Assembly (NCBI GenBank): GCA_020848745.1
Contig: JADLHM010000149.1
Location: forward strand, 1 to 64,000
DNA: 64,000 nt
Direction: 5' to 3'
Source: Deltaproteobacteria bacterium
GTDB taxonomy: Bacteria; Desulfobacterota; Binatia; UTPRO1
How positions within the stretch are numbered: the stretch's first letter is position 1; the number at the start of each line of letters is the position of its first letter. A model generated the notes under the pieces. It saw nothing but the letters and a program-made list of their open reading frames with translations. It was not told where the DNA came from and made no database searches. The translations under genes were made by a program, and so were the position numbers. Shown here piece after piece: positions 15,202 through 55,594 of the stretch.

Positions 15202-15867
15202 TCACTCCTTCCCGACGAGCACGCGGGCGCGGTCGAACACCGCGGCGAGCATCGCCGCCGTGAGCTTGCCCGTCTGGGTGTTCTGTCGGCTCGGGTGGTA
15301 CGACGCCACCACCATGAGGCTCCCGAGCATCGCTTCCGCGCCGTGTCCGAAGCGCGGCAACGGCCGCGGCAGCTCGCTCCCACGGGCGCGCTCCATGGCG
15401 AGCACGGTCGCGAAGGCGATCTGGCCGAGCGCGACGACCACCCGGACCCGCGTCAGGAGCGCGCGCTCCTCGAGGAGGAAGCCCCGGCAGCGGGCGAGCT
15501 CGTCGACGGTCGGACGGTTGTCCGGCGGCGCGCAGCGCGCAGCAGCCGTGACGTAGGCGTCGCGCAATCGCAAGCCGTCGTCGCGGCGCTCCGAGCGCGG
15601 GATGCTCGCAAAGCCCGCGCCGTGCATGGCGCGCATCAGCCAGAGGCCGCTGTCGTCGCCGGTGAACATGCGTCCCGTACGGTTGCCGCCATGTGCCGCG
15701 GGCGCGAGGCCGACGACGAGCAGGCGGGCGCGCGGATCGCCGAAGCCCGGGAGCGGCCGGCCCCAATAGACTTCGTCGCGGAACTGGCGGCGCTTGATCC
15801 GCGCGACCTCCTCGCGATACGCGACGAGCCGCGGACAGGCGCGGCAGCGGATGATCGCGTCGGCCAG
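15202..15867 (-). CDS. Uracil-DNA glycosylase, family 5 (UdgB-like)
   Basis: A DNA repair glycosylase that removes uracil. Motif A GLAPAAHGGNRTGRMFTGD is typical of family 5 enzymes, and SYHPSRQNTQTGK is the second active-site motif. The homologous part begins well upstream of the first ATG (15669): residues RACPRLVAYREEVARIKRRQF and the motif A region would be lost. The upstream frame has no ATG, GTG or TTG before a TGA; CTG at 15867 gives 221 residues, the normal length. The start is therefore probably CTG or another rare codon. The 112-residue gene upstream ends at 15890, so translational coupling is likely. Confidence 0.82.
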   Translation of the reverse strand: MADAIIRCRACPRLVAYREEVARIKRRQFRDEVYWGRPLPGFGDPRARLLVVGLAPAAHGGNRTGRMFTGDDSGLWLMRAMHGAGFASIPRSERRDDGLRLRDAYVTAAARCAPPDNRPTVDELARCRGFLLEERALLTRVRVVVALGQIAFATVLAMERARGSELPRPLPRFGHGAEAMLGSLMVVASYHPSRQNTQTGKLTAAMLAAVFDRARVLVGKE

Positions 15868-15889
15868 CCGGCCGAGCGCGGCGCGGCGA

Positions 15890-16228
15890 TCAGTCGCCGA
15901 CGTAGCGAACCTGGTTGTCGCGGACCATCACCGCAGAGGGAATCTCCTCGTCGGCGAGGCCATGTTTGACGCTCAGGTGCTCGACGAACGCGGCGCGCGC
16001 GCGGAAGCTCTGCGCGTGCGGGGCACAGTAATACGGCGCCTTGTTGATGCTCACGACGCCGGGCACCGCGTGGTGCGCGCCCCCGAACGGGAACGTCACC
16101 CCCGTGTCGTACTCGAGCGGCACGTCGATGAAGAGATCGGCCCGCGGACCGCCGCGCCAGCCTCGCGGTCCGTCCGCATGGGCCGTCATCGCCCCGACCA
16201 GTATGCCGAGGAGCACCATCGCCCGCAT
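15890..16228 (-). CDS. Small exported protein, unknown
   Basis: A 112-residue protein starting at ATG 16228 (a second ATG at 16219 is possible). The N-terminus MRAMVLLGILVGAMTAHA is a signal peptide. The mature part (DLFIDVPLEYDTGVTFPFGG, then YYCAPHAQSFRARAAFVEHL) is not a family I recognise. It lies between a PDZ protein and the uracil-DNA glycosylase on the same strand. The longer open frame to 16513 overlaps the PDZ gene and is rejected. Confidence 0.6.
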   Translation of the reverse strand: MRAMVLLGILVGAMTAHADGPRGWRGGPRADLFIDVPLEYDTGVTFPFGGAHHAVPGVVSINKAPYYCAPHAQSFRARAAFVEHLSVKHGLADEEIPSAVMVRDNQVRYVGD

Positions 16229-16283
16229 CGCCGGCGAGTATGCCAGCCGCGCGCCGGACGCGGAACGTCGATTCGCCGCGCGC

Positions 16284-17264
16284 TCACCGGCTTCCGCCCC
16301 ACGCCCCGAGTCGCGCCGCCGCCTGACGCGCGCGCTCCCACAGGAGCTCGACCGCCTGGTCGGGATTCCAGCGCCCTGCCATCTCGCCCGGCAACAGCAT
16401 GTGCGTCGTCCGCGGCGCCTGCTGCAGGCTTTCGTCAAGGAAGGGATAGCGCTCCATCCAGCGCGGCACTTCGGAGTCCGAAAAGTACGCGAGCGACAGG
16501 GCGCCGGCACCACGTTGATCGACGCGTGCGTGCGCGAGCTCCGCGGCCTTGTAGCGACGGATGTCGCGCGCCGTCTCGTGATAGCCGACGGCCTCGGCGA
16601 TCACGCCGCGCACGGCGGCGCCGCCTTCGCCATCGATCGAGAGCGCGGCGATCGCGTTGGTCGCCTCCGTGAGCCGCCGCTCGTACGCGGCGAGCGGCAC
16701 CGCCAGGCGCGCCGCCTCATCGACGGTGCCCAGCAGCGCCGCCGCGGCGACGGCCTTGGCCGCGAGCTCCGCCGATGTTCCGTCGCGCGCCGGCAACGCC
16801 GCTTCCCGCAACGGCGTCGGCGTCGCGCGCGGGGTGGCCACGGGCGAAACCGCGGACGGCGGAACGCGCGCCCGTTCCGCTTCCGGCGTGCTCGCCGGCT
16901 CGGCGAGCACAACCGCCGGCTCGGGCGCGGCGAGCGCCGCCATGACGAGCTTTCCGTCGCGCTCCGCCGCGACGAGGACGAGAAGCCCCCTGGCGAGCGC
17001 CTCGGCGGCGGCCGCCTCGAGGTCCGCGCAGCCGGTGATGCGGCGGCCGTTCGCCTGCCTGACGACGTCGCCGACGCGCAGGCCGCTGCCGGGTGCGGGA
17101 GAACCCCCGACGACCACTCCGCCGCCGCCGTCCAGAAGAGGACGCTCCTCGACGGCAAGCGACACCGCGGCGGGGAGGTCGCACTCGCGCGCCGCCTGCG
17201 CCGGCGAGGCCAGCGTGAGCGTGAGCGCGACGGCGTTCCCGAGACGCGCGATGACCGCGACCAT
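16284..17264 (-). CDS. Exported PDZ-domain protein
   Basis: A 326-residue periplasmic protein. ATG 17264 gives a signal peptide (VAVIARLGNAVALTLTLASP, cut near AQA). Residues about 25-110 resemble a PDZ domain (VVVGGSPAPGSGLRVGDVVR, then GRRITGCADLEAA). A Pro/Ala linker follows, then a helical C-terminal half with FSDSEVPRWMERYPFLDES and LLPGEMAGRWNPDQAVELL. No protease motif is seen, so it may be a binding or scaffold protein. The gene faces away from the PepF-like gene. Confidence 0.7.
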   Translation of the reverse strand: MVAVIARLGNAVALTLTLASPAQAARECDLPAAVSLAVEERPLLDGGGGVVVGGSPAPGSGLRVGDVVRQANGRRITGCADLEAAAAEALARGLLVLVAAERDGKLVMAALAAPEPAVVLAEPASTPEAERARVPPSAVSPVATPRATPTPLREAALPARDGTSAELAAKAVAAAALLGTVDEAARLAVPLAAYERRLTEATNAIAALSIDGEGGAAVRGVIAEAVGYHETARDIRRYKAAELAHARVDQRGAGALSLAYFSDSEVPRWMERYPFLDESLQQAPRTTHMLLPGEMAGRWNPDQAVELLWERARQAAARLGAWGGSR

Positions 17265-46404: not shown

Positions 46405-47062
46405 GCCGTTGGCGCTCGGCGTGCTGCTCTCCGGGAGCGGCACGAACCTCCAGGCGCTCATCGACGCCATCGCCGCAGGCACGCTCGACGCTCGCATCGC
46501 GGTCGTCGTGAGCAACGTGGCCGACGCCGGCGGCGTCGCGCGTGCGCACCGTCACGGGCTCCCGACCGTCGTGCTGCGCCACCGCGAGGCGCCGTCGCGC
46601 GAAGCCTACGATGCCCGCGTAGCGGAGACGCTCCGCGAGCACGGCGTCCGCCTCGTCGTACTCGCGGGCTTCATGCGCCTCGTGACGACGGTGTTGCTGC
46701 GGGCCTTCCCCACCCGCGTTCTGAACATCCACCCGGCCCTCCTCCCGGCGTTTCCCGGCTTGCACGCGGAACGCCAGGCGCTCACCCACGGCGCTCGCAT
46801 CACCGGCGTCACCGTGCACTTCGTCGACGAGGAGACCGACCACGGACCGATCCTCGCGCAAGCGGCCGTCCCGATCCTGCCCGACGACACCGAGGAGACG
46901 CTCCACGCGCGTATCCAACGCCAGGAGCATCGCCTGTATCCGTTCGCCATCCAGCTGATCGCGGCGGGACGCGTGCGCGTCGAGGGGCGTCGCGTGCTCG
47001 TCGACGGCGGCGCCTGCGCCACCGATGCGGTGCTCGCCAACCCGATGCTGCCCGCCGCGTGA
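46397..47062 (+). CDS. purN: Phosphoribosylglycinamide formyltransferase
   Basis: A 221-residue folate-dependent GAR transformylase. VLLSGSGTNLQALIDAI, NIHPALLPAFPG and HFVDEETDHGPILAQ hold the substrate and catalytic residues (Asn, His, Asp). ATG 46397 overlaps purM; its stop overlaps the next start as GTGA, coupling it to the flippase-like gene. Confidence 0.95.
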   Translation: MPEPLALGVLLSGSGTNLQALIDAIAAGTLDARIAVVVSNVADAGGVARAHRHGLPTVVLRHREAPSREAYDARVAETLREHGVRLVVLAGFMRLVTTVLLRAFPTRVLNIHPALLPAFPGLHAERQALTHGARITGVTVHFVDEETDHGPILAQAAVPILPDDTEETLHARIQRQEHRLYPFAIQLIAAGRVRVEGRRVLVDGGACATDAVLANPMLPAA

Positions 47063-48051
47063 TCCGCGGCGCGCGCGTCGCCCACGCCGCCATCGTGCTG
47101 GCGGGATTCGGCGTGTTCGCGGCGCTCGTACAGCACGTCGGCCCCGCACGCCTCGTGGACGACCTCCGTCGCTTCGGCTGGGCCATCCTCGCAGTCGTGG
47201 CGTTCGAACTCGTGATCGACGCCTGCAACACGGCGGCCTGGCGCGCCATCCTGCCGCCGGGGTCGCCCGTCGGCTTCGGACGCCTGTATTGGGTGCGGCA
47301 GGCCGGCGTCGCGATCAACCAGGTCACACCGACGGCCACCGTCGGCGGCGAGGTCGTCAAGACCCTCCTCCTGCGGCCGTACCTGCGGACGGCCACGACG
47401 GCGGCCTCGCTCGTCGCCGCCCGCATGAGCTACGCGCTCGGCCAGACGATCCTCGTGCTGCTCGGCCTGTCGGCGGTGTTGAGCCGGACCGGCGATGCCC
47501 CCGACCTCCGGGGCGCCATCGTCCTGACGGTCGTCGCGACCGCCGGCGGCGTCCTGAGCTTCGTCTGGCTGCAACGCGGCGGCATCTTCGCGCGCCTCGC
47601 GAACGGCCTGCCGCGACTCGGCCTCGCCGAGCGCCTCGTCGAGCGCGCGCGCGCCGCCGCGCGCGCACTCGATCGTCAGCTCGCGGCCTTCTACCGGGAG
47701 CGACCGGGCGCGTTCGTTGCATCGGTCTCCTGGCACGCGCTCGGGCAGATCGTCGGCCTCTTCCAGCTCTCGTTCACCCTGACGATGCTCGGCATGCCGG
47801 TCTCGATCGCCACCTGCCTCGCCATCGAGGCGTTCGCGCTCGTTCTCGATTCGGCGGCGTTCCTCGTTCCGGGGCGCGTCGGAGTGCAGGAAGCCGGCCG
47901 CGTGCTGGTGTTCACGACCTTCGGCTTGAGCGCCACGACCGGCCTCGCGGTCGCGGTGATCGTCCGACTCAGTCAGCTGACGGTGGTCGCGCTCGGGCTC
48001 GCGGCGTATGCCGTGCTTTCCATGCGCGCGCCGGCACCCGATCGGGCCTGA
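47059..48051 (+). CDS. Flippase-like integral membrane protein (UPF0104/HpnL type)
   Basis: A 330-residue protein with about eight membrane helices and the UPF0104 / lysylphosphatidylglycerol synthetase membrane-domain layout (WAILAVVAFELVIDACNTAA, INQVTPTATVGGEVVKTLLL, VPGRVGVQEAGRV). Members flip lipids or are linked to hopanoid and modified lipid pathways. GTG 47059 overlaps purN as GTGA. It converges with the first CDP-alcohol transferase, their stops 4 nt apart, and I place it at the edge of the head-group cluster. Confidence 0.8.
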   Translation: MIRGARVAHAAIVLAGFGVFAALVQHVGPARLVDDLRRFGWAILAVVAFELVIDACNTAAWRAILPPGSPVGFGRLYWVRQAGVAINQVTPTATVGGEVVKTLLLRPYLRTATTAASLVAARMSYALGQTILVLLGLSAVLSRTGDAPDLRGAIVLTVVATAGGVLSFVWLQRGGIFARLANGLPRLGLAERLVERARAAARALDRQLAAFYRERPGAFVASVSWHALGQIVGLFQLSFTLTMLGMPVSIATCLAIEAFALVLDSAAFLVPGRVGVQEAGRVLVFTTFGLSATTGLAVAVIVRLSQLTVVALGLAAYAVLSMRAPAPDRA

Positions 48052-48055
48052 GCGC

Positions 48056-49321
48056 TCACCTCGGACGCGCCGCGCGCGGCGCTGTCGCGAACACCCAGGC
48101 GACGCGGAACGCGTGCACCGCGACGGTCGCCACCGCCCACGCCACGACGCCGACGAAGGCCTCGGCGGGACGCCCGGTGAAGAAGCCCCCGACCAAAATC
48201 ATCACGTACACGTTGCGCCGACCGGCAACGGCGCGGAACCGACGATCGAACGGCGTGAGCTCGTCGAGCATGCGGCCGGTCGCCCGCTGCGCCGCGAGGT
48301 ACAGGAGGTTGTCCACCAGGTCGCAGGCCACGAGCAGCCAGCCCGCATACCAGAGATCCGCACGGCCCCCGGCGCGCCCGAAGTGCGACGCCAGCGCGAG
48401 GTACCAGCCGTTCTCGTAGAAGAAGTCCCCGACGTGCTCGAGCTCGCCGAGCTTCGAAGTCTGGAGCTTCAGACGCGCAAGCTTGCCGTCCACACCGTCG
48501 AGCACGCCGACGACCAGGGCCAGGAGTACGCCGACGCGCAGCCAGCCACCGTAGAAGAGCGCGGCGACCACGCCCGCCAGCACCAACGTGAACAGCGTGA
48601 TCTGGTTCGGCGTCACGCTCGTCGGTGCGAAGCGTCGGACGAGGAAGTTCTCGAAAGGCGCGTCGAAGTATTGCCCTGGGAGGTCGAGTGCGCGCTTCTG
48701 CACATGATCCAGCAGCACGTCCCATCCGGCCCGGCGCTCTTCCGTCGTCCCCACGGTGACGACGTACGGCGCCGCGTCACCACGAAGCTCCGCGCTGTAG
48801 GGATCGATCTCTTCGAGGAGGCAACGCTCCGCGTGCGCCGCGACCGCGGCTCCGTGGCGCGCGACGTCGGCCGCCCGGATCCATGCAACGGGCTCCTGCC
48901 GCGAGCCGTCGCAGCTCACGAACGTGGTGCGATCGCGGTCGAGGAGCGCGCGCAAGACGCGGAGATCGACCAGCCGATCGGCCGCGAGGGCGAGGAAGAC
49001 GTGCGGACGGTCGGGCGTCGCCGCGACCGCACCGGCGAGATCGCCGACGCCCTCCGGCACGCGTCGCACGCTCACGATCGCGCCCGGCACACTCACCGCG
49101 GGCTCCGGATCCCCGTCGCGTACCAGCAGCACGACGCGGGCGCGATCGAGCTTCACGAGCTGCTTCAACTGGCGCTCGAGCAGTGAGAGACCGCCGGGCG
49201 TTCCGGCACGTCGCCACGTCGCGTCCGACGGCACGAAGATCATGACGTCCACGGCCGGCGCGTCGCGCGCCGCCGCGGCGGCGGCGCCGTCGCGGCGCCC
49301 TGCCTCCGTCCGCCCCTCCAC
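48056..49321 (-). CDS. CDP-alcohol phosphotransferase fused to degenerate nucleotidyltransferase-like domain (copy 1)
   Basis: A 421-residue membrane protein. Residues about 22-165 have an NTP-transferase-like strand pattern (LSLLERQLKQLVKLDRARVV) but no glycine-rich nucleotide loop. Residues about 230-410 are a CDP-alcohol transferase domain with D275-x2-D278-G279-x2-A282-R283-x8-G292; the following DxxxD pair is altered to ELEHVGD (one residue short, first Asp lost or replaced by Glu295). Layout recalls bifunctional inositol-phosphate cytidylyltransferase/DIPP synthases. GTG 49321 is chosen because a promoter -10 covers the upstream GTG at 49333. Transcribed away from the HAD gene. Confidence 0.8.
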   Translation of the reverse strand: MEGRTEAGRRDGAAAAAARDAPAVDVMIFVPSDATWRRAGTPGGLSLLERQLKQLVKLDRARVVLLVRDGDPEPAVSVPGAIVSVRRVPEGVGDLAGAVAATPDRPHVFLALAADRLVDLRVLRALLDRDRTTFVSCDGSRQEPVAWIRAADVARHGAAVAAHAERCLLEEIDPYSAELRGDAAPYVVTVGTTEERRAGWDVLLDHVQKRALDLPGQYFDAPFENFLVRRFAPTSVTPNQITLFTLVLAGVVAALFYGGWLRVGVLLALVVGVLDGVDGKLARLKLQTSKLGELEHVGDFFYENGWYLALASHFGRAGGRADLWYAGWLLVACDLVDNLLYLAAQRATGRMLDELTPFDRRFRAVAGRRNVYVMILVGGFFTGRPAEAFVGVVAWAVATVAVHAFRVAWVFATAPRAARPR

Positions 49322-49330
49322 GATCCGCGC

Positions 49331-49359
49331 CACGTATCGTCCGTCCGGAACGGCGTCAA
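49331..49359 (-). promoter_or_regulatory. Probable leaderless promoter of CDP-alcohol gene copy 1
   Basis: Minus strand TTGACG (49359-49354), 17-nt spacer, TACGTG (49336-49331), then 9 nt to GTG 49321. Its -35 abuts the -35 of the divergent HAD promoter. Confidence 0.45.
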
Positions 49360-49388
49360 TTGCCGGTCTCCGCGACGCCTGGTACGTC
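49360..49388 (+). promoter_or_regulatory. Possible leaderless promoter of the HAD-led operon
   Basis: TTGCCG, 17-nt spacer, TACGTC, then 6 nt to GTG 49395. Together with the opposing promoter the two -35 boxes form CGTCAATTGCCG, so the two units share one control point. Confidence 0.4.
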
Positions 49389-49394
49389 TCCCGC

Positions 49395-50102
49395 GTGGCA
49401 CGCTCCGCGAGCGCAGCGCGACGCGCCGAGGGTCTCGTCGCGATCCTGCTCGACTACGGCGGCACCCTCGACGGCGACGCGCAGCACTGGTTCGATCATT
49501 TCGTGCGCCTCTGGGGTGAAGCGGACGCCGCCGTCCCGCTCGCGACCCTGAAGGACGCGTTCTATGCGGCCGACGCCGCCATCACCCGCGACCCGGAGAT
49601 CCGCGGGTTCGGTCTCGCGCGCATGATCCGCACGCACGTCGACCTCCAGCTCCGGCATCACGGCCGCCGCGACGACGTGCTGGCGACGCGGCTGGCCGAT
49701 GCCTTCATCGCCGATACGCGCGCCGCCTGGGACCGCAACCGGCCGCTCCTGCGCGCGCTCGCCCGCCGCTTCCGCCTGGGCGTCGTCTCGAACTCCTACG
49801 GCAACATGCCCGCGCTCCTCGCCGAGGCCGATCTCGCGCCCTTCGACGTCGTCGTCGACTCCGCGATCGAGGGCCTCGCGAAGCCCGACCCTGCGATCTA
49901 CACTCTGGCCGCCGTGCGGCTCGGCGTGCCGGCCGCTGCCGTGCTCCACGTCGGCGACTCGTGGGAGCGCGACGTGGTCCCGTCCGCCATCGTCGGCATG
50001 CGAAGCGCGTGGCTGGCGCGCCCGGGAGCGGCGACACCGCGCACACCCGCAAACGTCTGGCGCCTCGACTCCCTGCTCGATCTCGAGGCGCTCCTCGCAT
50101 GA
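49395..50102 (+). CDS. HAD-superfamily hydrolase
   Basis: A 235-residue HAD protein leading the six-gene operon. Motif I is LLDYGGTLDG (nucleophile Asp, but Gly instead of the usual second Asp at +2), motif II VVSNSYGN, motif III Lys in GLAKPDPAIY, motif IV GDSWERDV. A dephosphorylating role in head-group synthesis is likely; the motif I change leaves this open. The stop overlaps the next start as ATGA. Confidence 0.85.
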   Translation: MARSASAARRAEGLVAILLDYGGTLDGDAQHWFDHFVRLWGEADAAVPLATLKDAFYAADAAITRDPEIRGFGLARMIRTHVDLQLRHHGRRDDVLATRLADAFIADTRAAWDRNRPLLRALARRFRLGVVSNSYGNMPALLAEADLAPFDVVVDSAIEGLAKPDPAIYTLAAVRLGVPAAAVLHVGDSWERDVVPSAIVGMRSAWLARPGAATPRTPANVWRLDSLLDLEALLA

Positions 50103-50797
50103 TCGCCGGCATCATCGCGGCGGGGCTCGGCGAGCGGCTGCTGGCGCGCGGCATCCGCACCCCGAAGCCGCTCGTCGAGATCGCCGGCCGCCCGCTGATC
50201 GCGCGCACCATCGACGCCCTCTACGCCGCCGGCGCTTCGCGTATCGCGTGCATCGTGAACGCCGAGACCGATCGCGTGCGGGAGTACCTCCACGACACGC
50301 CCTGGCCCGTCCCGATCGACGTCCTCCAACGCACGACCGCGAGCTCGGCGGAGAGCTTCCTCGCGCTGCGCCCGTTCCTCTCGAAGGCGCCGTTCCTCCT
50401 CACGACGGTCGACGCCATCTGCGCCCCGAGCGCGTTGGTCGCGCTGGCAGCGCGCGGCCGCGCCCTCTCGCCGACCGCGAGCGTCCTCGGCGTGACCGCG
50501 ACCGTCGACGACGAGAAGCCGCTCTGGGCCGAAGTGGATGCGGACGACCGCATCCGATCGCTCGGCGACGCGACGCGCGCACGTCACGTCACCGCCGGCG
50601 TTTACTTCCTCCAACCCCTAGTATATTCGCTCGCGGATGAAATCGCCCCGCGCGTTTTCACCGCGTTTCGCGCCGTGCTCGGGGCGCTTCTCACGCACGG
50701 TCACCCGCTCTACGGGTTCGACGTCGGCGCGGCGATCGACGTCGATCGCCCCGAGGACATCGTGGCCGCCGAGCGCCTGCTCGGCCTGAACGTCTGA
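50099..50797 (+). CDS. Sugar/polyol-phosphate nucleotidyltransferase
   Basis: A 232-residue NTP transferase. The nucleotide loop is intact: AAGLGERLLARGIRTPKPL (residues 7-25; Arg13 and Lys23), then FLLTTVDAICAP for the metal Asp and FDVGAAIDVDRPEDI near the end. It would form a CDP- or other NDP-activated alcohol. It is the only complete nucleotidyltransferase in the cluster and may serve both CDP-alcohol fusions. It overlaps its neighbours as ATGA and TGATG. Confidence 0.85.
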   Translation: MIAGIIAAGLGERLLARGIRTPKPLVEIAGRPLIARTIDALYAAGASRIACIVNAETDRVREYLHDTPWPVPIDVLQRTTASSAESFLALRPFLSKAPFLLTTVDAICAPSALVALAARGRALSPTASVLGVTATVDDEKPLWAEVDADDRIRSLGDATRARHVTAGVYFLQPLVYSLADEIAPRVFTAFRAVLGALLTHGHPLYGFDVGAAIDVDRPEDIVAAERLLGLNV

Positions 50798-51609
50798 TGC
50801 GGAGCCTCGTAGGCGTATTCCGCGAGCCCGAGTATTCCCCGGGTCGTGTCGACGACGACGCCGCGATCCTCGAGCGCACGCGGGACGCGTTGGCGGCGCG
50901 CGGCCTGACCATGCGGCTCGGCGGCATCGAGCTGCTCGCCGACGGTGCGCCGGCGGCCGTGCTCGCGATGTGCCAGTCGGATCGCGCCCTCGCCGTGCTC
51001 GACCGGGCGGCGGCCGCCGCGACCGTCATGAACCACCCGAACGCGATTCGCGCCTGCCATCGGCACGAGACGATACGCCGCCTCACCGCCGCCGGAACCC
51101 CGTTTCCGGCGACGCGCATCGTCCCAACCGCGACGGAACGACCGCGCGGCGCGCGCGCGCCGTGCTGGGTGAAGCGTGGCGACGTCCATGCCATGACCAC
51201 GGACGACGTCGTCTTCGCGCCGACGCGGGAAGCGCTCGACGCGACGCTCGCGGACTTCGCCGCGCGGGGCATCACCCACGCGGCGCTACAGACCCACGTC
51301 GAGGGCGTCGTCGTGAAGTTCTACGGTGTGGCCGACGGGCGCTTCTTCCGCTGCTACACCCGAGAAGGAGCCGTTCCGGCTCCGATCCCGGCCTTGTGGA
51401 GCGTCGCGCACGCGGGCGCCGCCGCGCTCGGGCTCGACGTGTTCGGCGGCGATCTCGTCGTCACCCCCGACGGACGTCCCTTCCTCATCGACGTGAACGA
51501 CTGGCCGAGCTTCGCGCGCTGTCGCGACGAGGCTGCCGACGCCATCGCCGGCTACGCGATCGACCGCCTGATCGACGTCGCGCCGGCCGCGCAAGGACAG
51601 CATGGATAA
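50797..51609 (+). CDS. ATP-grasp enzyme
   Basis: A 270-residue ATP-grasp protein of RimK/inositol-kinase-like shape. NHPNAIRACHRHETIRRLTA starts the N-domain contact, CWVKRGDVHAM holds the ATP Lys, LQTHVEGVVVKFYGV the hinge and FLIDVNDWPSF the Mg-binding Asp/Asn. It could be a kinase for a cyclitol or a ligase joining an amino acid to an amine; the sequence alone does not decide. TGATG overlap before, 8-nt overlap after. Confidence 0.78.
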   Translation: MRSLVGVFREPEYSPGRVDDDAAILERTRDALAARGLTMRLGGIELLADGAPAAVLAMCQSDRALAVLDRAAAAATVMNHPNAIRACHRHETIRRLTAAGTPFPATRIVPTATERPRGARAPCWVKRGDVHAMTTDDVVFAPTREALDATLADFAARGITHAALQTHVEGVVVKFYGVADGRFFRCYTREGAVPAPIPALWSVAHAGAAALGLDVFGGDLVVTPDGRPFLIDVNDWPSFARCRDEAADAIAGYAIDRLIDVAPAAQGQHG

Positions 51610-52924
51610 GAAACCCGGCCCGAAGTCCCGCTCGGTGTTCCACGAGGAGCAAGCCGTCGTCGCGCCCGGACAGCAGCGCATCGCGCTGCTGTCCGAGCTG
51701 ACGCTCGCATCCGGGCGGGGCGCGACCATCACGGATCTGGACGGCAACACCTACCTCGACTTCTTCGCGGGTGTCGCCGTCGCGAGCCTCGGCCATGCGC
51801 ATCCCGCCTACATGGCCAAGGTGGAGGCGCAGCTCCGGCGCATCTCCGTCGGCAGCTTCACGACCGAGAATCGGCTGAAGCTGCTCAGGCTGATCGCCAA
51901 GCTGGCGCCCGGGAACCTCGCTCGCACACAGCTCTTCAGCGGTGGTGCGGAGGCGGTGGAGGCGGCGTTCCGGCTCGCGATGTCCGCCACGGGCAAATAC
52001 GAGATCGTCGGGTTCTGGGGTGGGTTCCACGGCAAGACGGCGGGCGTCATGGGCCTGATCGGCGACGAGTCGAAGCACGGCTGGGGCCCCCTTCCCGGCG
52101 GCCGGTTCTCCGTGCCTTACGCCGACTGCGCGCGCTGCCCATTCAAGCTTCGTCATCCCGACTGCGGCCTCGCCTGTGCGGACTTCGCGCGGCAGGCGAT
52201 CAAGCGCACCACCTCGGGGGCGGTCGCGGCGATCGTCATCGAGCCGATGCAGGGCACGGCCGGCAACGTCGTCCCTCCGCCGGAGTTCCTCCCGGCGATC
52301 CAGAGCATCGCAAAGGAGATCGGCGCGCTCTTGATCGCCGACGAGATGATCACCGGCTTCGGACGCACCGGCCGCTGGTTCGGGTGCAACCATTCCAACG
52401 TGGTCCCCGACGTCATGACGGTCGGCAAAGGGATGGGGAACGGCTTTCCGATCAGCGGCGTGATCTCGTCCGACGACATCGTGAGAGCCGAGCCATTCTC
52501 GCGAGCGAGCGCGTCGTCCTCCAGCTACGGCGGCAATCCGCTGGCGGCGACGGCCGCCCTCGCGACACTCGAGGCGATGGTCGACGAGGGGCTGGTCGAG
52601 CACGCCGCGACGATCGGCGCGCACATGCTGGATCGCCTGCGCGCCATGCGGGAAACGTACCCCTTCATCGGCGACGTTCGCGGCGCCGGCTTGATGATCG
52701 GCGTCGACCTCGTCGCCGACCGCAGCACGAATGAGCTCCTCGGGCGCGCCGCCACCGAGCGCATCTTCCTCGATGCGCTCCAGCACGGCCTCTTGATGAT
52801 GGGATACTTCCCGCGCATCCGCATCAATCCCCCGCTCACGATCACGCGCGAGCAAGCCGATCGGGGGCTCGACATCCTCGACCGGGTCTTCGCCCGCGCC
52901 GCCAAGGAAGTTCCGGCGTCGTGA
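51602..52924 (+). CDS. Class III PLP aminotransferase
   Basis: A 440-residue PLP enzyme. PLP Lys276 is in TVGKGMGNGFP, the PLP-binding Asp in ADEMITGFGRTG (247-257), and HPAYMAKVEAQL and FSGGAEAVEAAF are typical. A Cys-rich insertion (C176-x2-C179 and C188-x3-C192) resembles the region holding an iron-sulphur cluster in some GABA aminotransferases. Next to a dehydrogenase, it likely aminates a keto-polyol or keto-cyclitol (inference). Confidence 0.92.
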   Translation: MDKKPGPKSRSVFHEEQAVVAPGQQRIALLSELTLASGRGATITDLDGNTYLDFFAGVAVASLGHAHPAYMAKVEAQLRRISVGSFTTENRLKLLRLIAKLAPGNLARTQLFSGGAEAVEAAFRLAMSATGKYEIVGFWGGFHGKTAGVMGLIGDESKHGWGPLPGGRFSVPYADCARCPFKLRHPDCGLACADFARQAIKRTTSGAVAAIVIEPMQGTAGNVVPPPEFLPAIQSIAKEIGALLIADEMITGFGRTGRWFGCNHSNVVPDVMTVGKGMGNGFPISGVISSDDIVRAEPFSRASASSSSYGGNPLAATAALATLEAMVDEGLVEHAATIGAHMLDRLRAMRETYPFIGDVRGAGLMIGVDLVADRSTNELLGRAATERIFLDALQHGLLMMGYFPRIRINPPLTITREQADRGLDILDRVFARAAKEVPAS

Positions 52925-54000
52925 AGGGGAGGCGGCCACGCCCGCTGCGCGGGGCGATCGTGGGATTCGGCAACGTGGCGGTCGAAGGCCATCTGCCGGC
53001 CTGGCGCGAGCACAAGCTCTTCGACATCGTGGCGGTCTGCGACCCGAACGAGACGCGGCTGGCGCTCGCGGCGGAGGCGCTGCCGACGGCGCGCCGCTAC
53101 GCCGACATCGACGACCTCCTGCTGAACGAGCGTCTCGATTTCGTCGATGTGGCGACGCCGCCCGCGAGCCACGCCGCGATCGTGCTCGCCGCGCTGGCCA
53201 AGCGCGTGGCGGTCCTTTGCGAGAAACCCCTCACCACCACGTGGGACGTTCTCCGGCAGATCCGCAACGCCGCGAGCGCCGCACGCGCGGTCGTCTTCAC
53301 GACCCACAACTGGAAATACGCGCCGATCATCCGCACCGCGAAGCGCACGCTCCGCCGCGGCGACATCGGCGCCGTGTCGCACGTCCGTCTCGAGACGGTC
53401 CGCACGACGCCGCCGACCGACGCGGGCACCGACGGCACGTGGCGCCTCGATCCGGCGGCCGCCGGCGGCGGCATCCTGGTCGACCACGGATGGCATGCGT
53501 TCTACCTCGCCCGCCACCTCGCCGATGCGGACCCGGTCGCGATCTCCGCCGTGACGTCGCAGCGCAAGTTCACGGCGACCAGCGTCGAGGATACCGCCGA
53601 ATGCACCATCGAGTTCCCGCGGGCACGCGCCGAGATCTTCCTCACGTGGGCGGGCGACGCACGCCGGAACTCCGGCACGGTGACGGGAAGCCTCGGCACG
53701 CTGACGATCGCGGACGGCACCCTGATCACCACCATCGGGAACGGGCCTCCCGTCGAGACGCGCTTCGCGCAGCCGCTCTCGGCCGGCTCGTACCATCCCG
53801 ACTGGTTCGCCACGATGCTCGACGATTTCCACGCCGAGCTGCACGATCCGGCGACCCGCGGCGGCAACCTCCGCGAAGCCGAGGCCTGCTGCCGCCTCCT
53901 CGAGCGCGGCTACCAGTCGAGCGCGGGCGGCGGCGTGCGTCTCGCGCTGGCGGAGGTCCCATCCGCCCCGGCGGGAAGCCCCGCGACCCCCGGTGAGTGA
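52921..54000 (+). CDS. Gfo/Idh/MocA-family NAD(P) oxidoreductase
   Basis: A 359-residue dehydrogenase. The Rossmann loop is AIVGFGNVAVEGHLPAW, the active-site Lys is in LCEKPLTTTWDV, and DHGWHAFYLARHL holds the catalytic His region. Relatives oxidise sugars and inositols. GTG 52921 overlaps the aminotransferase as GTGA, and the end overlaps the next gene by 8 nt. Probably supplies the keto substrate for the aminotransferase. Confidence 0.92.
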   Translation: MKGRRPRPLRGAIVGFGNVAVEGHLPAWREHKLFDIVAVCDPNETRLALAAEALPTARRYADIDDLLLNERLDFVDVATPPASHAAIVLAALAKRVAVLCEKPLTTTWDVLRQIRNAASAARAVVFTTHNWKYAPIIRTAKRTLRRGDIGAVSHVRLETVRTTPPTDAGTDGTWRLDPAAAGGGILVDHGWHAFYLARHLADADPVAISAVTSQRKFTATSVEDTAECTIEFPRARAEIFLTWAGDARRNSGTVTGSLGTLTIADGTLITTIGNGPPVETRFAQPLSAGSYHPDWFATMLDDFHAELHDPATRGGNLREAEACCRLLERGYQSSAGGGVRLALAEVPSAPAGSPATPGE

Positions 54001-55111
54001 CGGGGTCGCGGCGCGACCCTTCGACGGGATCATCGTCGCGAACGGCGGCGCCGACCACGTCGTCGGCGGGATGCGGCTGGTGGAACGCGCCGCGTTCGCC
54101 CTGGCGCGCGCCGGGGCCACGCGTCTGCTGCTGCTCGGTCCAGGCCGCGACGCCGCCCTCAGGATGCCCCCGGTGGACGTGCAATGGAACGTGCCGCCGG
54201 CGACGTGGGTCGGTGCGGCGGGTGACCCGATCGTCGTGATCTCCGCCACCACCGTCGCCGCGCCGGCCACGATCGCGGCGCTCGCGGAGGAGCCGACGCC
54301 AGGGCCGCACGCCGCGCCCCGCGGCGTCCTCTGGCGCGCCGACCCCTGCTGCCCGGCCGCGCTCGACCCTCGGACTCGACCAGGCCTGCAACCTCCCGCA
54401 GACCTCCCGCGCTGGACCCCGCCGAAGGACGCGCTCCTCGTTCCGGCCAGCGACGCGACCGGCCGCGCCGCCGCCGAGCGCGCGCTCTTCACGCGCCTCG
54501 GCCGGAGCGGCGACGGCTGGTTCACGCGGCTCGTCGACCGCCGCCTGTCGCGCAGCCTCACCCGCCTCCTCCTTCCCACCGGGATCGCGCCGAACGTCGT
54601 GACGCTCGCCTCGATCGCGATCGGCATCGCGGGCGGCTGCTGCTTCGCGCGCGGCACGCCGAGCGCGGCCGTCGCCGGAGCCCTCCTCTTCCTCTTGTCG
54701 ACGATCGTCGACGGCTGCGACGGGGAGATCGCGCGCATGACCTACCGCGAGAGCGCCTTCGGAGCGAAGCTCGACATCCTCGGCGACAACCTCGTCCACC
54801 TCTTCCTCTTCGGCGGGATCGCGATCGGCCTCTACGCCCGGAGCGGCGACGCGATCGTCGCCGCTCTGGGCTGGGCCCTCCTCGGCGGCGTCCTGCTCGC
54901 CATGGCATCGGTCTACGCCTGCGTCGTCCGCCGTCCTCCGAGCCCCGCTCAGCGCGCGCTCTACGAGGCCTTCGCGAGTCGGGAGTTCGCGTATCTGCTC
55001 GTCGTCCTGACACTCGCCGGCCGCCTCGACTGGTTCCTCTGGATGTCGGCGATCGGGACCTACGTCTTCGCCCTCGGGCTCCTGATCCTGGGCGTCCTCT
55101 CCCGGCGCTGA
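53993..55111 (+). CDS. CDP-alcohol phosphotransferase fused to degenerate nucleotidyltransferase-like domain (copy 2)
   Basis: A 372-residue membrane protein and last gene of the operon. Residues 1-115 look like a reduced NTP-transferase fold (GIIVANGGADHVVGG, then RLVERAAFALARAGATRLLL) without the G-x-R/P-K loop. Residues about 175-370 carry the full CDP-alcohol motif: D240-x2-D243-G244-x2-A247-R248-x8-G257-x3-D261-x3-D265, plus six helices. It would transfer a phospho-alcohol from its CDP form to a lipid or polyol. GTG 53993 overlaps the oxidoreductase gene. Confidence 0.85.
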   Translation: MSDGVAARPFDGIIVANGGADHVVGGMRLVERAAFALARAGATRLLLLGPGRDAALRMPPVDVQWNVPPATWVGAAGDPIVVISATTVAAPATIAALAEEPTPGPHAAPRGVLWRADPCCPAALDPRTRPGLQPPADLPRWTPPKDALLVPASDATGRAAAERALFTRLGRSGDGWFTRLVDRRLSRSLTRLLLPTGIAPNVVTLASIAIGIAGGCCFARGTPSAAVAGALLFLLSTIVDGCDGEIARMTYRESAFGAKLDILGDNLVHLFLFGGIAIGLYARSGDAIVAALGWALLGGVLLAMASVYACVVRRPPSPAQRALYEAFASREFAYLLVVLTLAGRLDWFLWMSAIGTYVFALGLLILGVLSRR

Positions 55112-55183: not shown

Positions 55184-55594
55184 ATGTCGAACCCCGCAAT
55201 GCTTCGTCGAGGGGACCATCGGTGGGACGACGCGTTCCCGCTCCTGCCCGAGCAGTTTGCCGAGACTACTCGGGTGCTGGAGGTAGCGGAACCCGAACGT
55301 CGACTCCTGCTGGCGGTGCTCTGCGACGCCATCGTCGTGTTCCAACGACGCGTCGTCGGTACGGGGGGCTCACCGCTGCCACCCGATGAGGCCGAGCGTT
55401 GGATCCTGTCGAACGATCGCCGCTGGATCTTCTCGTACGTGAACGTGTGCGAGGCCCTCGGACTCGCACACGAGCCCCTGCGCCGCGCGCTCATCGCGTG
55501 GCGTTGGCGCGTCGCGAGCGCGAGTCGGAGCCCCGCGGCCCGGCGGCGTCTCCTCGCCGGAAAGCAGCCGATCTCGCCGCCGACGTCGAGCTGA
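55184..55594 (+). CDS. Conserved-looking hypothetical protein
   Basis: A 136-residue soluble protein. AGAGGA lies 7 nt before ATG 55184. The core pattern RRLLLAVLCDAIVVFQRR, then EAERWILSNDRRWIFSYVNV and CEALGLAHEPLRRALIAW looks like a conserved helical domain that I cannot name. The helix near the end could bind DNA. It stands alone; function unknown. Confidence 0.68.
   Translation: MSNPAMLRRGDHRWDDAFPLLPEQFAETTRVLEVAEPERRLLLAVLCDAIVVFQRRVVGTGGSPLPPDEAERWILSNDRRWIFSYVNVCEALGLAHEPLRRALIAWRWRVASASRSPAARRRLLAGKQPISPPTSS

Follow-up and report, generated by a model that had tools for sequence, protein, structure and literature searches.

A conserved eight-gene cluster predicted to make and export an inositol-derived phospholipid in a deltaproteobacterium

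Gene content of the locus

We analysed a stretch of 64,000 nucleotides from a Deltaproteobacteria bacterium (assembly GCA_020848745.1, contig JADLHM010000149.1, positions 1 to 64,000; hereafter the window), in which a cluster of eight genes at positions 47059-55111 is a candidate for the synthesis and export of a phospholipid with an inositol-derived head group. A sequence-only reading had grouped these genes and proposed that they form a new pathway for an amino-polyol or cyclitol head group. The grouping is borne out: all eight open reading frames (ORFs) are present at these coordinates, and their families were recovered by hmmscan against Pfam and NCBIfam, save for the ATP-grasp protein, which was assigned not by Pfam but by its fold, using Foldseek on AlphaFold2 (AF2) models.

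The first gene (47059..48051, + strand) encodes an integral membrane protein of the LPG_synthase_TM / HpnL-like type, a putative lipid flippase (PF03706, E 6.8e-27). It is convergent with CAPT1 (48056..49333, - strand), in which a degenerate nucleotidyltransferase-like N-terminal domain with a weak NTP_transf_3 match precedes a CDP-alcohol phosphotransferase (PF01066, E 4.8e-8). CAPT1 is in turn divergent from the gene of a HAD-IA family protein (HAD; 49395..50102, PF00702 E 2e-15), whose GTG start at 49395 is the least certain of the gene starts. HAD opens a run of six + strand genes. It is followed by NTP, a free-standing nucleotidyltransferase (50099..50797, NTP_transf_3 E 2.9e-12), by the ATP-grasp gene (50797..51609), whose product has a RimK / inositol-phosphate-kinase fold and belongs to a cluster-specific family without Pfam match, and by AT3 (51602..52924), a pyridoxal phosphate (PLP)-dependent class III aminotransferase of a cluster-specific subfamily (PF00202, E 5.4e-97). 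The run ends with GFO (52921..54000), a Gfo/Idh/MocA oxidoreductase (GFO_IDH_MocA, E 4.3e-22), and CAPT2 (53993..55111), an N-terminal extension followed by a CDP-alcohol phosphotransferase (PF01066, E 1.8e-10). Each gene overlaps the next, by 4 (HAD/NTP), 1 (NTP/ATP-grasp), 8 (ATP-grasp/AT3), 4 (AT3/GFO) and 8 nt (GFO/CAPT2), so that the ORF coordinates confirm the chain with overlaps of 1-8 nt described in the earlier reading.

Catalytic features of the encoded enzymes

NTP is predicted to be a CTP:inositol(-like)-phosphate cytidylyltransferase. Its residues 3-228 align to the IPCT part of NF041135 (model positions 3-217, E 1.2e-10), and G-x-G-x-R, Lys23, Asp105 and Asp214/216 are conserved among its homologues. 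Each of the two CDP-alcohol transferases is extended at its N terminus and has inositol enzymes among its nearest solved or curated relatives. The motif of CAPT2 is complete (D-x2-D-G-x2-A-R..G-x3-D-x3-D), as it is in 51 of 66 relatives, and its nearest solved relatives by sequence are AF2299 (E 3e-16) and IPCT-DIPPS (4mnd, E 3.5e-13), the match to the latter covering the C-terminal domain only. CAPT1 has a variant motif (DGVDGKLAR..G-x2-E-x3-D) that is kept across its subfamily. Its AF2 model (pLDDT 83.4) matches AF2299 and IPCT-DIPPS over the full length, with 442 alignment columns against 4mnd, and the fused architecture is therefore already known: in these Archaeoglobus proteins, as in CAPT1, a nucleotidyltransferase-like domain is joined to a CDP-alcohol phosphotransferase. 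The window differs from them in having a separate, intact NTP, whereas in CAPT1 the G-x-G-x-R and Lys signature is missing from the fused domain, and the transferase motif is a variant. The NF041135 cut-off (580 bits) was reached neither by CAPT1 (36 bits) nor by CAPT2 (60 bits).

Lys276, Asp247 and Arg407 of AT3 and Lys102, Asp188 and His192 of GFO are conserved in the respective homologue alignments, and from these alignments the active sites of both enzymes are intact. From knowledge of the families, we take these residues, among them Lys276 as the PLP lysine, and those of NTP to be catalytic. GFO matches the inositol 2-dehydrogenase model (E 8.3e-21, below its cut-off) and is a predicted inositol(-phosphate) dehydrogenase. 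The synthesis of aminocyclitol antibiotics uses an inositol dehydrogenase and a PLP aminotransferase of the StrI/StsC type. The two genes of the window resemble that route, in which a Gfo/Idh/MocA dehydrogenase and then a PLP aminotransferase act on the inositol ring, but AT3 is of class III and not of the DegT/StsC type, and the product here would be expected to go onto a lipid. Three conserved cysteines of AT3 (C179, C188 and C192) may bind metal.

Motif I of HAD reads DxGGT, with D20, G22, G23 and T24 each shared by 90% or more of the 88 HADs in the alignment. In HAD phosphatases, the second Asp of the DxD of motif I is the acid/base. Because DxGGT replaces DxD and this Asp is missing, the label of phosphatase is uncertain for HAD.

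Conservation and distribution

The conservation of the cluster is far beyond chance. CAPT2 has an ortholog in all six genomes sampled from the window's family, and gene order is maintained within both genus and family. In one of the genomes (G003) the cluster is divided between two contigs; another (G001) has neither the membrane protein nor CAPT1 at the site, although the purN-HAD interval is intact, so neither gene is indispensable at the locus. Among 198 genomes of the phylum, 13 have a strong match to the ATP-grasp protein (E below 1e-20), with the gene set clustered there, and the AT3 subfamily (E<=1e-120) is found in the same 13 and in no others. A lack of conservation in relatives, which would have told against the first reading, is thus not what we see.

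A wider scan of one genome per species, queried with the ATP-grasp profile, yielded at least 560 confirmed relatives, and close relatives of the cluster are spread over about ten named phyla. In the best 80 of these at least 560 relatives we counted NTP 71 times, HAD 71, a CAPT2-like gene 68, AT3 52, the membrane protein 51 and GFO 49 times, many of the apparent absences falling at contig ends. Linkage was counted in 96 homologous cluster loci; the counts of loci are slightly inflated because a few were sampled twice (L058/L067, L055/L100). Of the 96, 60 have both AT3 and GFO, 9 have a single one and 27 lack both. On the ATP-grasp tree this state needs at least 4 changes, compared with 18.8 when labels are shuffled, and two loci without the pair (L093 and L123) nest in a clade that otherwise has it. 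This suggests that the Bacteroidales form of the cluster, which lacks AT3 and GFO, derives from the form that has them; as the root of the tree is arbitrary, it does so without showing it. A record labelled Patescibacteria (L085) has the full cluster together with a myo-inositol-phosphate synthase 83% identical to an Ignavibacteria/Bacteroidetes-type one, a placement due either to mis-binning or to transfer.

Linkage to inositol and lipid-transport genes

A gene for myo-inositol-phosphate synthase, of one of two distinct types, lies in or beside 26 of the 96 loci, both with and without AT3/GFO. In an Elusimicrobia locus (L103) it follows HAD-NTP-ATP-grasp-AT3-GFO-CAPT2, the order of the window, with a 4-nt overlap. 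It sits between ATP-grasp and GFO in L055, and the synthase of L114 was confirmed by Pfam. The window's own genome carries its synthase outside the cluster, on contig C46, where it adjoins a CDP-alcohol transferase scoring best, below the cut-off, as archaetidylinositol/phosphatidylinositol phosphate (PIP) synthase. A search with PF07994 alone had indicated that this genome has no synthase; we rejected that result, as the search also missed the Corynebacterium control and PF01658 found the gene. On C46 (loci L150 and L004) the synthase, the PIP synthase-like transferase and a flippase-like membrane protein stand in a row, as a second, conventional-looking inositol-lipid locus. The PIP route of phosphatidylinositol (PI) synthesis (mycobacterial / BT_1522-1526 type) also makes an inositol phospholipid through CDP-alcohol transferases, but from CDP-diacylglycerol and inositol phosphate and with no nucleotidyltransferase, and a gene of this kind is present in the window's genome apart from the cluster. 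The genome therefore probably encodes ordinary PI synthesis by this route, and the cluster would make an additional product.

A similar set of genes has been described in Bacteroidetes. Heaver et al. 2022 (PMC9246714) reported a 'putative alternative inositol lipid cluster' in B. vulgatus and Prevotella, with an NTP transferase, a CDP-alcohol transferase and a HAD protein near an inositol-phosphate synthase, and proposed that inositol phosphate and CTP give CDP-inositol, from which the head group is transferred to diacylglycerol; according to a 2023 review (PMC10191378), this route was still an in silico prediction. The NTP, transferase and HAD families are those of the window, and an LPG-synthase-type membrane protein lies nearby as well. 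Our Bacteroidales loci (Phocaeicola, Duncaniella, Muribaculaceae) have NTP, ATP-grasp, CDP-alcohol transferase and HAD, without AT3/GFO; Phocaeicola also has the membrane protein, in the order NTP, ATP-grasp, transferase, membrane protein, HAD, and the spacing of the published locus tags (RS13095 NTP, RS13105 transferase, RS13115 HAD) fits this five-gene order. In the Duncaniella locus, a further gene matches phosphoinositol dihydroceramide synthase above the model cut-off. The published cluster has neither aminotransferase nor oxidoreductase, and the paper does not mention an ATP-grasp protein; the window's cluster, for its part, contains two CDP-alcohol transferases, both fused, but not the synthase. 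Homologous clusters are thus in part already assigned, and because the core set has been published as a predicted route, the window's cluster is an extended variant of it, and the idea of an entirely new pathway holds only in part.

Genes for lipid transport are also linked to homologous clusters. Relatives of the flippase gene lie in or beside most of them, and in Ignavibacteria a verified MlaD gene and putative MlaE and MlaF genes are found within the operon. These three genes stand between NTP and ATP-grasp in L076 and L114, and also in L085, L089, L102 and L115. Together with the HpnN- and HpnM-like genes near homologous clusters, they support a lipid product. Serine-palmitoyltransferase-like genes occur near Verrucomicrobiota and other loci, which makes ceramide one possible acceptor.

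Predicted pathway

We consider it reasonably probable that the product of the cluster is an exported phospholipid with a head group built from inositol phosphate, and that in the window AT3 and GFO turn this head group into an inosamine. NTP would load the head-group phosphate using CTP, to give a donor of the CDP-inositol type, and a CDP-alcohol transferase would move the head group to a lipid alcohol, for example diacylglycerol or ceramide, after which the LPG_synthase_TM protein would flip or move the product. GFO and AT3 would act as an oxidise-then-transaminate pair that converts one ring hydroxyl into an amine; this is the simplest reading of the two genes, and since the pair would replace a ring hydroxyl, it predicts inosamine and not plain inositol. 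For the ATP-grasp protein and the atypical HAD, a probable role is to adjust either the position of the phosphate or the donor ahead of transfer. The CTP activation, lipid transfer and aminated cyclitol of the sequence-only reading all fit this scheme; the cyclitol has gained support from the synthase in homologous clusters and from the inositol enzymes among the relatives, while the amine and its position are inferred.

Several observations weigh against this proposal. HAD is without the usual acid/base Asp, and in the window's genome the synthase lies outside the cluster, next to a PIP synthase-like gene. Class III aminotransferases usually act on amino acids and terminal amines, and the known inosamine transaminases belong to another aminotransferase subfamily. 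Squalene-hopene cyclase and the cluster track each other strongly within the phylum, which a plain phospholipid route leaves unexplained. Finally, the Bacteroidetes route is itself only predicted, and our proposal, too, is computational throughout.

More tentatively, and with the balance slightly against it, the operon, present in about ten named phyla, could define an undescribed class of bacterial membrane lipids: phospholipids with an inosamine head group, for which a CDP-activated aminocyclitol would be the donor. The cluster of gut Bacteroidales would then be a version lacking the amine step. We found no description of such lipids, or of the cluster extended by AT3 and GFO, in the open-licence literature. 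If true, an inositol-type lipid of cationic or zwitterionic character, as yet unnamed in lipidomics, would be produced in many environmental phyla (Gemmatimonadota, Rokubacteria, Verrucomicrobiota, Ignavibacteria, sulfate reducers and others), and the CDP-inositol route predicted for the abundant Bacteroides of the gut would belong to a far broader pathway as one of its branches. The cluster also offers candidate roles for a Pfam-less ATP-grasp family and an atypical HAD.

Alternative readings

The product of the cluster could instead be a plain inositol lipid, phosphatidylinositol or inositol phosphoceramide, formed by the CDP-inositol route, with AT3 and GFO serving, for example, inositol supply or salvage and the head group free of amine. 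The same core does exist without the pair in Bacteroidales and in a few Ignavibacteria/Chlorobiota, and Bacteroidetes with the core make PI-dihydroceramide (PMC9246714). However, AT3 and GFO are almost always present or missing as a pair, overlapping between core genes, the AT3 subfamily is confined to cluster genomes in the phylum sample, and a separate PIP synthase-like route is already present in the window's genome, so that we regard this explanation as unlikely.

Somewhat less likely still is that the ATP-grasp protein is a RimK-type ligase joining an amino acid to the aminated head group, to give an aminoacylated polyol lipid, with AT3 supplying the amine or the amino acid. Foldseek on the AF2 model (pLDDT 94.8) places RimK and related ligases on top (RimK 1.8e-13), but the plant kinase ZmITPK1 follows at 2.4e-12, and with a fold about equally similar to both, the comparison favours neither ligase nor kinase. 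The match to the RimK model TIGR00768 is weak (19.7 bits, cut-off of 143.4 not reached). As a single sequence the protein has no match among Pfam, including its inositol-phosphate kinase domain, or PDB sequences; its profile matches ITPK4 (E 1.8e-5), an inositol-phosphate kinase with whose C-terminal motif its own, KFYG...D-x-N-D-W-P-S-F, aligns. In addition, the ATP-grasp gene is equally present in core-only clusters, in which there is no AT3.

The last alternative connects the cluster to hopanoids, the head group being placed onto them or working with them, as in a modification cluster related to the cyclitol ether synthesis of hpnI/J/K. The likeness to the hopanoid accessory genes hpnI-N lies in the HpnL-like protein of the window and in the HpnJ, HpnK, HpnM and HpnN-like genes near some clusters. 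Within the phylum, squalene-hopene cyclase is present in 11 of the 13 cluster genomes against 20 of the 185 others (Fisher p 1.6e-8). HpnJ lies directly upstream of the cluster in L065, a locus with AT3 and GFO from the cultured strain Desulfoferrobacter suflitae DRH4, HpnK and HpnJ adjoin the cluster in L113, IspH and HpnM-like genes are beside it in L117, and HpnN-like genes are near several loci; the hopanoid producers with such neighbours are L065, L113, L117, L066 and L098. Yet the flippase gene scores 166.4 bits against HpnL (TIGR03476), below the 195.65 cut-off, we recognised no hpnI, hpnJ or hpnK in the window's cluster, and a search of the window's genome for HpnJ at E<=1e-100 gave no match. 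Among genomes of the phylum that have the cyclase, HpnJ is about as frequent with the cluster (6/11) as without it (10/20). Outside the phylum, searches for the cyclase found none in six Ignavibacteria/Bacteroidetes-type genomes, most Gemmatimonadota genomes and one Acidobacteriota genome, all with AT3 and GFO, and none in Bacteroidales. Hopanoid modification was demoted on the last two grounds and is the least probable of the three alternatives; we think it more likely that these bacteria share a type of membrane than that the cluster yields a hopanoid, though a hopanoid may be the acceptor in some lineages.

Two further genes were noted near these clusters. A Rokubacteria locus (L091) has a radical-SAM-like gene (15420-16340) between the membrane-protein and CAPT1-type genes. 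Directly downstream of CAPT2 in the window lies an ORF at 55184-55594, a conserved hypothetical protein of 136 aa without Pfam match, which among the loci searched has homologues in the window's family only.

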